Assembly (NCBI GenBank): GCA_002688965.1
Contig: NZEE01000025.1
Span: 1 to 5,356 of the forward strand
Reading direction: 5' to 3'
Length of the DNA: 5,356 nt
From: an archaeon
Lineage (GTDB): Archaea > Aenigmatarchaeota > Aenigmatarchaeia > GW2011-AR5 > GCA-2688965
How positions within the stretch are numbered: position 1 is the first letter of the stretch; every line of letters begins with the position of its first letter. Under the pieces are notes generated by a model, which was not told the DNA's origin, did not search any database, and saw only the letters and a list, made by a program, of their open reading frames with translations. Of the stretch, positions 2,723 to 5,356 are shown piece by piece. The translations under genes and the position numbers were made by a program.

Positions 2723-3532
2723 ATGGATCAAAAATTTAAGAGAGTTGCTGTTTGTATTTCAGGTCATATGAGAACATTTAAACAGACAGCAATACCACTA
2801 CAAGAAAAGTTCCTAAGTAACATAGCTGAGGAATGGGATTTTTTCATCTATACTACTAGAAGAATTGACTGGAGCTTCACCGGTGTGCCTCGCTCAGAAC
2901 GAGGAACAAATCTACCACCACTTATGACCGATGCCGATGTAGACGAGATACATCGGCTTTATAGGCCCAAGTCATTAGTAATTGATGGGAAAGACTTCAG
3001 TTCTCCACAAGGAGCTATTGAAGACAACGGGTTCGGCCGAAGAAGCATGCTTCAAAGAGTTAAGATGTCAAATAGCTTGAGACATGACTATGAGGCCAAA
3101 GCGACAGTCAAGTATGACTGTGTGATTAAAATGCGTCCGGATCAAGTCGTAATTGATGAATTTAAAGACTTAAGTGTGATAGACCCAGATCGCCTAGCAG
3201 TTCTTCCTTACGGCAAAGTTCATGATGGGCTGACTGATACGTTTGCAATGGGCCCTCCCCATCTGATGGACACTTATTTTAACTTGTTTGATAATGTGGA
3301 AAATTATAGGCATGTGACGGTGCGAGGATCGTGGGCAATTGAGTTGGTAATACAGCAGTATCTAATAGACACAGGAATTAATCATTACGAGATACCGCTC
3401 AATCTCAGAATCAAGAGATATGGTGGAAACTACTACTGGTTTCATGATCAGCCCGGAAGTGTCGAACATTTCGCGTCGATAGGATTAGTATGGAACAACG
3501 AGCTAAAGAAATTGGTTGAGATACGAAAATGA
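2723..3532 (+). CDS. Uncharacterised glycosyltransferase-like protein (SGHMRTF/RPD type)
   Basis: The 269-residue product begins with a hydrophobic strand leading into CISGHMRTF (11-19), then WDFFIYTTRRIDW (38-50), YDCVIKMRPDQV (131-142) and DTFAMGPPHLMDTYF (172-186). A C-terminal block holds SWAIELVIQQYL (203-214) and IPLNLRIKR (224-232). I recall this layout (a C-x-SGxxRTF opening and a central 'YD-hydrophobic-RPD') from uncharacterised proteins of polysaccharide clusters and large viruses that are often labelled glycosyltransferase-like; no activity is known to me. Asp140 of RPD could take the role of a metal- or donor-binding acidic residue, which is inference. There is no signal peptide or membrane segment. 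A strong AGGAG lies seven bases before the ATG, fixing the start, and the stop overlaps the next start as ATGA. It is separated from the upstream gene by a stem-loop. The coding call is firm; the function is tentative. Confidence 0.6.
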   Translation: MDQKFKRVAVCISGHMRTFKQTAIPLQEKFLSNIAEEWDFFIYTTRRIDWSFTGVPRSERGTNLPPLMTDADVDEIHRLYRPKSLVIDGKDFSSPQGAIEDNGFGRRSMLQRVKMSNSLRHDYEAKATVKYDCVIKMRPDQVVIDEFKDLSVIDPDRLAVLPYGKVHDGLTDTFAMGPPHLMDTYFNLFDNVENYRHVTVRGSWAIELVIQQYLIDTGINHYEIPLNLRIKRYGGNYYWFHDQPGSVEHFASIGLVWNNELKKLVEIRK

Positions 3533-4257
3533 AAGGCATAATACTAGCGGGCGGCACCGGTTCTAGACTGTATCCGCTTACAAAAGTAACGAATAAACAT
3601 TTGTTACCTGTAGGTGACTTGCCCATGATTCTTCATTCGGTAAGGAAACTAGTAGATGCGAATGTAACAGATATCATGGTAGTCACTGGAACTGAACACA
3701 TGGGAGACATGGTGTCGCTGTTAGGAAGCGGAAACTCTTATGGGTGTAGTTTCACGTATAGAATTCAAGATCAGCCAGATGGAATTGCAGGGGCACTGTT
3801 ACTTTGTGAAGGATTTGTCAAGGATGACTCATGTATTGTGATATTAGGAGACAACATATTTCAAGATAGTCTTCAAAGCATAGTTGACAAGTTTCTTTCT
3901 TTAAAGACAAAGAGAGGAGAGTCTCAAACGTGTGCTTTGGCACTTAAGAAAGTACCAGATCCGCATCGTTTTGGTGTAGCTGAAGTTAAAGGCGACAACA
4001 TCATATCAATTGAGGAAAAACCTGAAAATCCAAAATCAGATCTATGCACGACGGGAATATACTTGTACGATAGACACGTGTTTGATATTATTAGAACACT
4101 AAGAAAGTCTGATAGGGGAGAGTATGAAATCACCGATGTTAATAATGAATATATCAAAATCAACGGAGTGACTTTTACTCAATTCCATGGTTGGTGGTCT
4201 GATGCAGGTACACACGAGTCTTATCATCGCGCTAACATCCTAGCACATAGGGAATAA
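3529..4257 (+). CDS. Short RmlA-like sugar-1-phosphate nucleotidyltransferase
   Basis: This 242-residue protein belongs to the NTP_transferase (RmlA-like) family, which joins a sugar 1-phosphate to an NTP to give an NDP-sugar, typically dTDP-glucose. The signature loop LAGGTGSRLYPLT (6-18) is followed by Lys23 in KHLLPV, then QPDGIAGAL (82-90), LGDNIF (106-111) with the metal-binding Asp108, RFGV (147-150), EEKP (162-165) with Lys164, TGIYLYD (175-181), GEYEITDVN (197-205) and WWSDAGTHES (222-231) with the second metal Asp225. It is about 50 residues shorter than classical RmlA (about 290) and lacks the C-terminal segment that in those enzymes helps form the tetramer and allosteric site; similar short forms exist. 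The ATG overlaps the preceding stop as ATGA. No rmlB, rmlC or rmlD lies in the window, so thymidylyl specificity and a rhamnose end product cannot be assumed. Confidence 0.85.
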   Translation: MKGIILAGGTGSRLYPLTKVTNKHLLPVGDLPMILHSVRKLVDANVTDIMVVTGTEHMGDMVSLLGSGNSYGCSFTYRIQDQPDGIAGALLLCEGFVKDDSCIVILGDNIFQDSLQSIVDKFLSLKTKRGESQTCALALKKVPDPHRFGVAEVKGDNIISIEEKPENPKSDLCTTGIYLYDRHVFDIIRTLRKSDRGEYEITDVNNEYIKINGVTFTQFHGWWSDAGTHESYHRANILAHRE

Positions 4258-4264
4258 TATTAAG

Positions 4265-5356
4265 ATGATTAAACTCATTATATTTGACATGGACGGTGTG
4301 TTAGTTGATGCTAGAGAACTTCACTATGAAGCATTGAATAGAGCATTAGGTTTAGTGGGAGAAAAGTATATAATCAATCGTCAAGAACATTTGTCAACTT
4401 ATGATGGGTTACCCACTTTCAAAAAACTTGTCAGCCTTACAGAAAAAAAAGGTCTTCCGGAAGAAAAGCATAATGATATCTGGAAGATGAAACAGGATGC
4501 CACTACACAAATCATTAATGAAGAATTTTCATATGATGAACGTCTAAGAACCCTTTTGAGAAATCTAAAAGCAAAAGGATATCAGATTTGTGTTGCCTCA
4601 AATTCTATTCGAGAGACAGTTAAATTAATGCTGCTTCGAAAAGGATTGTTAGAGTATATTGATTTTTATTACAGTAATCAAGATGTCCAGAATCCAAAAC
4701 CAAATGTTGAAATGTATCTTAGATGCATGATAAAAGCTGGATGTTCACCCAAAGAAACACTCATTGTAGAAGATTCTCACATTGGAAGAAAAGCTGCGAT
4801 GGACAGTGGTTCAACATTATGTGCAGTTCGAAACCCGGATGACGTAACTTATGAGCTTATTATATCTCACTTATCCAGTGCCGCTAAAATGTCATCGACG
4901 AGTCCCAAGTGGCAAGGAGGGAAAATGAATGTATTGATTCCAATGGCCGGCGCCGGAAGTAGATTTGAAAAAGCAGGATACACATTTCCAAAACCTCTAA
5001 TCGAGGTAAACGGAAAACCAATGATTCAAGCCGTTACAGAAAATTTGAACATTGATGCTCGACATATTTTTATTGTACAAAAAACCCACTATGAGAAGTA
5101 TAATCTTAAAAGTTTGCTTCGATTAATTTCTCCTGAATGTGAAATTGTACAAGTCAATGGTGTGACTGAGGGCGCTGCGTGCACCACACTGTTGGCGAAA
5201 GAGCTTATTAATAATGATAATCCGCTGCTTATTGCCAATTCAGATCAGTACATTGACTGGGAAAGTAATGAGTTTATGTACTCAATGACTGCTGATGAGA
5301 TCGACGCCGGAATTCTCACTTTTACAGCAACTCACCCCAAATGGAGCTTTGCGAAG
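4265..5356 (+). CDS. HAD phosphatase/mutase-like domain fused to a nucleotidyltransferase (partial at 3' end)
   Basis: One frame stays open for 364 codons to the window edge. Residues 1 to about 202 form a HAD subfamily I domain like beta-phosphoglucomutase: DMDGVLVD (8-15) with Asp8 nucleophile and Asp10, His20, a helical cap with YDGLPTFKKL (46-55), ASNS (111-114), NPKP with Lys145, and VEDSHIG (168-174) with Glu169 and Asp170. After a polar Ser-rich linker (about 203-220), a sugar nucleotidyltransferase starts at Met221: LIPMAGAGSRF (224-234), FPKPLIEV (241-248), TEGAACTTLLA (301-311) and ANSDQY (324-329). About 140 of an expected 230-250 residues of this domain are visible. The parts suggest successive steps: the HAD acts on a sugar phosphate and the partner activates it with an NTP; the substrate is unknown. 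The cap lacks an obvious match to the phosphate-binding Arg49 of beta-phosphoglucomutase. The ATG lies seven bases after the previous stop, with AGGGA at 4249-4253. An internal in-frame start sits at 4925. Confidence 0.85.
   Translation, partial: MIKLIIFDMDGVLVDARELHYEALNRALGLVGEKYIINRQEHLSTYDGLPTFKKLVSLTEKKGLPEEKHNDIWKMKQDATTQIINEEFSYDERLRTLLRNLKAKGYQICVASNSIRETVKLMLLRKGLLEYIDFYYSNQDVQNPKPNVEMYLRCMIKAGCSPKETLIVEDSHIGRKAAMDSGSTLCAVRNPDDVTYELIISHLSSAAKMSSTSPKWQGGKMNVLIPMAGAGSRFEKAGYTFPKPLIEVNGKPMIQAVTENLNIDARHIFIVQKTHYEKYNLKSLLRLISPECEIVQVNGVTEGAACTTLLAKELINNDNPLLIANSDQYIDWESNEFMYSMTADEIDAGILTFTATHPKWSFAK
4914..4927 (+). promoter_or_regulatory. Internal ribosome-binding site and in-frame ATG at the domain boundary
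   Basis: AAGGAGG (4914-4920), followed by GAAA and ATG (4925-4927), lies inside the fusion gene. The ATG is codon 221, in frame, and encodes the first residue of the nucleotidyltransferase domain, exactly where a free-standing enzyme of this family would begin. The sequence is a better Shine-Dalgarno match than the one before the fusion's own start; the four-base spacer after GGAGG is slightly short but workable. It codes for Trp-Gln-Gly-Gly-Lys, so chance in a Gly-containing linker is possible. If used, it would give a second, shorter product from the same mRNA. Confidence 0.5.

Follow-up and report, generated by a model that had tools for sequence, protein, structure and literature searches.

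A gene that gives two products acting together is known from phage M13, in which G1p and G11p are encoded by the same gene and the second one arises from an internal start. An internal in-frame start has been shown experimentally for Cas11b, the second protein of the cas8b gene (PMC11899642). Shine-Dalgarno (SD) sequences are reported to be depleted in coding regions of highly expressed bacterial genes (PMC5100845). Hence, a strong SD sequence at the border of two domains stands out. The gene described here has such a site between a HAD domain and a nucleotidyltransferase domain. Searches of open-licence papers in PubMed Central listed no description of this fusion or of its internal start.

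The fused gene is located on the forward strand at positions 4265..5356 of the window, the whole stretch of 5,356 nucleotides that was analyzed. It consists of one open frame of 364 codons and continues past the window end. The first part (4265..4879) is a beta-phosphoglucomutase-like HAD domain (Pfam HAD_2, 1.9e-28, residues 5-188). It is followed by a linker (4880..4924), which is variable except for Trp216, and by the nucleotidyltransferase domain (4925..5356; Pfam NTP_transferase, residues 227-354) that is proposed to be made also on its own. TIGR02009 was matched by the HAD part with 3.8e-27 and 95.7 bits, below the cut-off of 153.35, and the cut-off of the beta-phosphoglucomutase equivalog TIGR01990 was not reached either (74.9 vs 189.4 bits). 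The PDB beta-phosphoglucomutase 6h8y was matched at 4.4e-17. NTP_transferase (PF00483) passed its gathering cut-off (30.2 vs 21.2 bits) with the truncated copy of the window. The HAD part comes closest to beta-phosphoglucomutase, and the second part to sugar-1-phosphate nucleotidyltransferases. For the whole predicted model, which has a pTM of 0.54 and an uncertain domain orientation, the fold-match lists contain the nucleotidyltransferase domain only; the HAD assignment was derived from sequence (Pfam, TIGR and PDB-sequence matches). The closest full-length protein among the best 120 of 7,999 scored, P0001 (459 aa), is 98% identical over the window part and has the same join.

Six forward-strand open reading frames from the ORF list of the window look like genes. 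Upstream of the fusion these are an ORF without family match (163-879), a nucleotide-sugar epimerase (876-1874; PHROG 540), a further ORF without family match (1875-2684), an ORF belonging to PHROG 13607 with no function assigned (2723-3532) and, directly upstream, an RmlA-like nucleotidyltransferase (3529-4257). At E 0.001, neither Pfam nor NCBIfam nor PHROGs gave a match for 163-879 or 1875-2684. The stretch of phage S-SCSM1 matching 876-1874 carries the annotation GDP-mannose-3',5'-epimerase. PHROG 3980 was matched by both the RmlA-like nucleotidyltransferase and the fused gene. By DNA, parts of the window match 39 phage records, 31 of which are from Synechococcus phages. At least 80% of the fused protein is covered at one place and in a single piece in 11 phage records with 57-59% identity; the six of these that were inspected carry a single-gene annotation for the fusion, with epimerase or glycosyltransferase genes nearby. 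The matches to phage records together with the neighboring sugar genes therefore identify the fusion as a gene of aquatic tailed phages that is placed in sugar clusters. The cyanophage loci L002 (3912-4541), L003 (7111-7800) and L004 to L006 contain a second, separate HAD hydrolase gene, which is located one gene further downstream of the fusion and matches the HAD domain of the query. A 3.4 kb contig from a Flavobacteriaceae metagenome bin (L087) encodes the fusion at 67% identity and is perhaps a phage contig that was binned with a bacterium.

Relatives were collected from seven viral scans, one genome scan and six phage records. Each scan gave its best 80 loci at most, and the same contig recurs. 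From the genome scan only L087 was used, which alone among the best 80 loci listed matches both domains. The query words of the first viral scan included the join peptide KWQGGKMN (one of six), resulting in a biased sample. As a remedy, scans were carried out with the nucleotidyltransferase part alone, with the HAD part alone and then four times with nucleotidyltransferase sequences of relatives. Of 485 loci checked (best 80 per scan), 444 encode both domains in one frame, 37 have the nucleotidyltransferase only and 4 gave no usable match. The fusion is the rule within this sample and occurs widely in aquatic phages. Counts refer either to 265 unique fused genes, including the window and leaving out genes with N, or to 248 representatives, which are the fused genes under 97% nucleotide identity.

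HAD enzymes share the catalytic motifs DxD, Ser/Thr in motif II, Lys in motif III and an acidic motif IV. Asp8 and Asp10 are kept in 263 of the 265 unique genes (2 gaps), and Ser/Thr112, Lys145 and Glu169-Asp170 are present in all of them, as are Gly229, Gly231, Arg233, Lys243 and Asp327 of the nucleotidyltransferase part. The most likely role of the fusion is to dephosphorylate or isomerize a sugar phosphate, followed by NTP activation for glycosylation during infection. An earlier reading of the sequence alone (the sequence-only reading) had suggested that the fusion pairs successive steps of sugar activation. The domains fit this suggestion, a mutase or phosphatase preceding nucleotidyl transfer, and the pairing is putatively assigned.

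The same reading reported an uninterrupted frame through both domains with AAGGAGG and an in-frame ATG at the domain join, which was confirmed. The SD-like AAGGAGG (4914..4920) lies within the codons Gln217-Gly218-Gly219 and is separated by GAAA from the ATG of codon 221 (4925..4927), so that an in-frame start codon with a putative ribosome-binding site marks the domain border. Pairing with the anti-SD ACCUCCUUA, which may not be that of the window's host, was computed at -11.9 kcal/mol. This is the strongest value among the 49 in-frame internal ATGs of the six genes in the window, the next strongest being -6.9 kcal/mol. The six gene starts are all weaker (-2.7 to -9.5 kcal/mol), including the start codon of the full-length fusion (4265..4267) with -5.9 kcal/mol. 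As background we used 7,155 in-frame internal ATGs of other forward-strand ORFs of at least 150 codons at the loci of the representatives, a set compiled mechanically in which false ORFs are to be expected; 1.8% of these ATGs reach -7 and 0.07% reach -11. For the 203 relatives with ATG at codon 221 these proportions are 72% and 25%. The dependence on SD pairing may differ between the ribosomes of cyanobacteria and those of E. coli.

We consider it probable that two proteins are made from the gene, the full fusion and, by way of a selected internal ribosome-binding site at Met221, a separate nucleotidyltransferase. The full HAD-nucleotidyltransferase fusion would be translated from the start at 4265, and ribosomes would also initiate at Met221 resulting in the nucleotidyltransferase domain alone with about 239 aa. 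This free domain is presumably stable and active, either alone or in oligomers mixed with the fusion. Its purpose would be to provide extra nucleotidyltransferase relative to HAD, and the surplus may lift the one-to-one limit or enter mixed oligomers. A nucleotidyltransferase gene that was once separate and then joined to the HAD frame may be the source of the site, and some lineages, mostly those with Leu221, seem to have lost the site or never had it. Simple pattern scans for an internal promoter, as another source of the free domain, gave nothing convincing. In the search with the nucleotidyltransferase only, Met221 is the first residue of 55 of the 120 proteins listed; these were not counted as evidence of initiation, as many of them come from short contigs and starts of this kind are picked by gene callers.

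Codon 221 is ATG in 204 of the 248 representatives. The others have TTA (20), TTG (7), CTA (6), CTT (5), CTC (3), GTT (2) or ATT (1), of which TTG could still be a start codon. Homologous fusions lacking the SD or Met at this point, which had been named as speaking against an internal start, do exist in part: 44 of 248 representatives are without ATG (7 of them with TTG), and a start codon is not found in all fusions, while 44 other ATG genes are without SD excess. In the 265 unique genes Leu replaces Met221 in 43 cases and Trp216 is invariant. Part of the join is therefore kept for the protein. The peptide from Trp216 to Met221 varies: the window's group has WQGGK, the inspected cyanophage isolates have WRSEK and similar peptides, another group has WESKT, and WKDDK and similar peptides are found elsewhere. 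The site is spelled in three ways, by WQGG (CAAGGAGG), by Trp-Arg (TGG-AGR) and by WESKT (TGG-GAG). These peptide groups were named after the data were seen and comprise 96 (WQGG), 21 (Trp-Arg) and 43 (WESKT) of the 204 ATG genes, leaving 44 others.

The site could instead be a by-product of coding: Trp and then Met or Leu would be needed before Asn-Val-Leu-Ile-Pro in the first strand of the nucleotidyltransferase, and WQGGK would happen to be encoded by CAAGGAGG without any initiation. Trp216 is invariant even where the site is missing, and the replacement of Met by Leu points in the same direction. In the first 94 ATG genes (among 131 representatives) the SD energy is -8.72 vs -8.27 expected, and 54% of the synonymous recodings are as strong. 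The codon composition of Gly218 is no outlier (chi-square 16.3), 4 of 23 other Gly columns deviating more (20.4 to 25.4).

A column scan, in which the SD energy was compared with the synonymous expectation from 25 recodings per site based on the codon use of the same gene, addressed preservation beyond coding needs. Since all columns share the same tree, column 221 is not singled out by relatedness alone. In the 204 ATG genes it has the highest SD excess of 450 columns (-0.98; standard deviation over columns 0.29), and it also ranks first of 447 in the 108 ATG genes without WQGG. By group, it ranks first of 455 in the 43 WESKT genes; in the 21 Trp-Arg genes it is second of 449, the overlapping column 220 being first. 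In the 44 non-ATG genes its rank is 409 of 449 (+0.34), and no SD excess is seen at this column in the 44 ATG genes that belong to none of the three groups (rank 288 of 451). In the 96 WQGG genes, the window's group, column 221 ranks 30 of 450 with an energy barely above synonymous expectation, which is again compatible with a by-product of coding. Codon choice was pronounced in the two other named groups. Arg217 is encoded by AGA or AGG in 21 of 21 Trp-Arg genes, whereas these codons make up 20-38% at the six other conserved Arg columns compared. For Glu217, 42 of 43 WESKT genes use GAG, which is the top proportion among 24 conserved Glu columns, although these genes are closer kin in the codon comparison (median distance 0.19 vs 0.33). 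Column scan and codon choice add little in the WQGG genes because a strong site already follows from the WQGG peptide. Local RNA structure around Met221 tends to be slightly weaker than the synonymous expectation in WQGG (60 of 96 genes sampled; t 1.6), Trp-Arg (t 2.8) and WESKT genes (t 1.9); the weakening is less clear in non-ATG genes (t 0.7) and in the other ATG genes (t 0.9).

Synonymous differences were counted between nearest pairs and corrected for pair and amino acid. The pair sets were defined by peptide and start codon, and earlier sets picked by SD energy were dropped as circular. In 100 ATG pairs, 246 differences were observed in residues 217-226 vs 307 expected (80%, z -4.8). This resembles the gene's own start (residues 2-10) with 223 vs 279 expected (80%, z -4.5), and the flanking stretches have 92-93% of the expected change. 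The 21 non-ATG pairs had 64 vs 58 expected differences in residues 217-226 (110%, z +1.0), a small control with 86-89% in the flanks and 98% at the own start, i.e. without constraint at the own start. By group, the reduction was found in WQGG (48 pairs; 139 vs 174 expected, 80%, z -3.9) and Trp-Arg genes (10 pairs; 61% of expected, z -3.0), and the other ATG genes including WESKT had 101 vs 110 expected (42 pairs; 92%, z -1.1). Of the 253 conserved sites compared in WQGG genes, Gly218 has the lowest synonymous change (z -3.6). Parsimony on 71 WQGG genes placed its third base as the least changing of 65 fourfold sites and Gly219 fifth, and Val223 and Pro226 just past the ATG are also low. Among 247 windows of conserved columns in WQGG genes, 218-226 is second lowest (z -4.1) after 199-219 (z -4.4), which is lowest because of variable linker columns. 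A synonymous deficit at linker columns of about 198-214 was seen in the WQGG and non-ATG sets alike and was treated as an artefact. In Trp-Arg genes the lowest window is 224-231.

In the ATG genes as a set, the site is preserved at the codon level, most clearly in Trp-Arg and WESKT genes. The 44 other ATG genes do not follow this pattern, and in the window's own WQGG group the synonymous-change tests speak for preservation, and the SD excess and the Gly218 composition against it. A by-product of coding leaves unexplained the exclusive use of AGR for Arg217, the nearly exclusive use of GAG for Glu217, the first rank of column 221 and the lower synonymous change before and after the ATG, and we regard this explanation as rather unlikely. 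An internal start that is real and lineage-restricted is most likely. The supply of free nucleotidyltransferase from it, as suggested in the sequence-only reading, thus gains from the codon-level preservation of the site, is weakened by its absence in some lineages and stays putative.

An internal SD may also cause a translational pause, during which the HAD domain folds ahead of synthesis of the second domain; the ATG would then be incidental. The location at the domain border fits such a pause, and a slowing of elongation by SD sequences in coding regions has been suggested, a claim that is called controversial (PMC5100845). Non-ATG fusions have the same domain border and are mostly without the site: an SD energy of -6.5 or lower is reached by 4 of 44 non-ATG vs 156 of 204 ATG representatives, a raw association that is not independent evidence. 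Across independent lineage pairs, coupling of Met and site was not significant, which weakens the internal start and leaves room for a pause, neither with 248 rows and an SD cut of -6 (same way 2.2, opposite 1.7 of 8) nor with 131 rows and an SD cut of -6.5 (same way 2.0, opposite 0.1 of 6). Against a pause, non-ATG fusions also show no codon bias toward a site, and the low synonymous change in WQGG genes reaches past the ATG to Val223 and Pro226. We consider a pause improbable.

Of the 37 nucleotidyltransferase-only loci, 12 are repeats and 5 are truncated at a contig end, so that 20 distinct unfused genes remain. All 20 have an ATG at the place aligned with Met221, preceded, as judged by eye, by a purine-rich stretch in 17 of them (e.g. 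ATACAAGGAGAAAAAATG in L340). In a tree rooted on distant unfused genes, 18 of 22 unfused rows are located outside the main fused clade, where one clade of 12 unfused genes and two single ones are found beside three fused genes. Of the four rows inside the main fused clade, L337 groups with fused relatives and the other three are on long branches. This quick tree calls for caution: its outgroup does not form one side of a branch, three of the fused genes fall among the basal unfused ones, and long branches may mislead. It weakly suggests that a separate nucleotidyltransferase gene with its own start was later joined to a HAD gene, for which three changes would be needed. In L324, L338 and L342 the unfused copy lies between a gene for a short, putatively phosphodiesterase-like protein and a gene for a putatively RuBisCO-like protein; in L324 and L338 it overlaps the former gene by 4 bases.

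The sequence-only reading had offered a relic of two once separate genes as an alternative. The aligned ATGs and the position of most unfused rows in the tree agree with such an origin. As a pure relic, site and Met would be left over without present function, which is hard to reconcile with codon-level maintenance across divergent genes and with the spelling of the site by different residues in different groups, and the supporting tree has the weaknesses given above. We give a pure relic very little credence. Relic origin and present function are compatible. At L337 (1859-2709), a 32-codon HAD stub in another frame precedes the nucleotidyltransferase frame, the first ATG, GTG or TTG of which is the ATG equivalent to Met221, and the kin L491 is intact. 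The L337 protein is 97% identical to the nucleotidyltransferase part of the fused L491, with 3 synonymous and 8 non-synonymous differences over 241 codons and no sign of selection. L337 looks like a former fusion from which most of the HAD part has disappeared. It resembles a natural test of the site but was not counted as proof, given the 4.4 kb contig, a possible assembly error and no sign of selection.

Fusions are usually read as fixing two activities one-to-one. With a working internal start, these phages would retain the fusion and yet set the ratio of the activities. We tentatively propose that a large and widespread group of aquatic phages keeps a gene within a gene, with a selected start written in differing residues and with nucleotide-level selection shaping both the linker and the activity ratio in infection. 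ATG genes with the site, ATG genes without it, fusions without ATG and unfused genes provide a natural series for testing why. If the proposal is true, the annotation of many aquatic phage genomes overlooks a protein. Other cases can be sought with the same comparative recipe, in which the SD excess of each column is measured against a synonymous null and relatives without the start serve as control.

The HAD part resembles beta-phosphoglucomutase-like HAD hydrolases (6h8y, 1lvh; PF13419, TIGR02009) in an alignment of 200 residues and in the core catalytic residues; it differs in falling below the curated cut-offs and in being fused to a nucleotidyltransferase. In contrast to the nucleoside-diphosphate-sugar pyrophosphorylase of Vibrio cholerae (4evw) and the RmlA/GlmU-type enzymes (PF00483), the nucleotidyltransferase domain of the window is located behind a HAD domain. 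G1p and G11p of M13 differ from the fusion in being membrane assembly proteins. Cas11b belongs to an archaeal CRISPR system and not to phage sugar metabolism, and the likeness is in the second protein from an in-frame internal start (PMC11899642), which for the fused gene is proposed from sequence.
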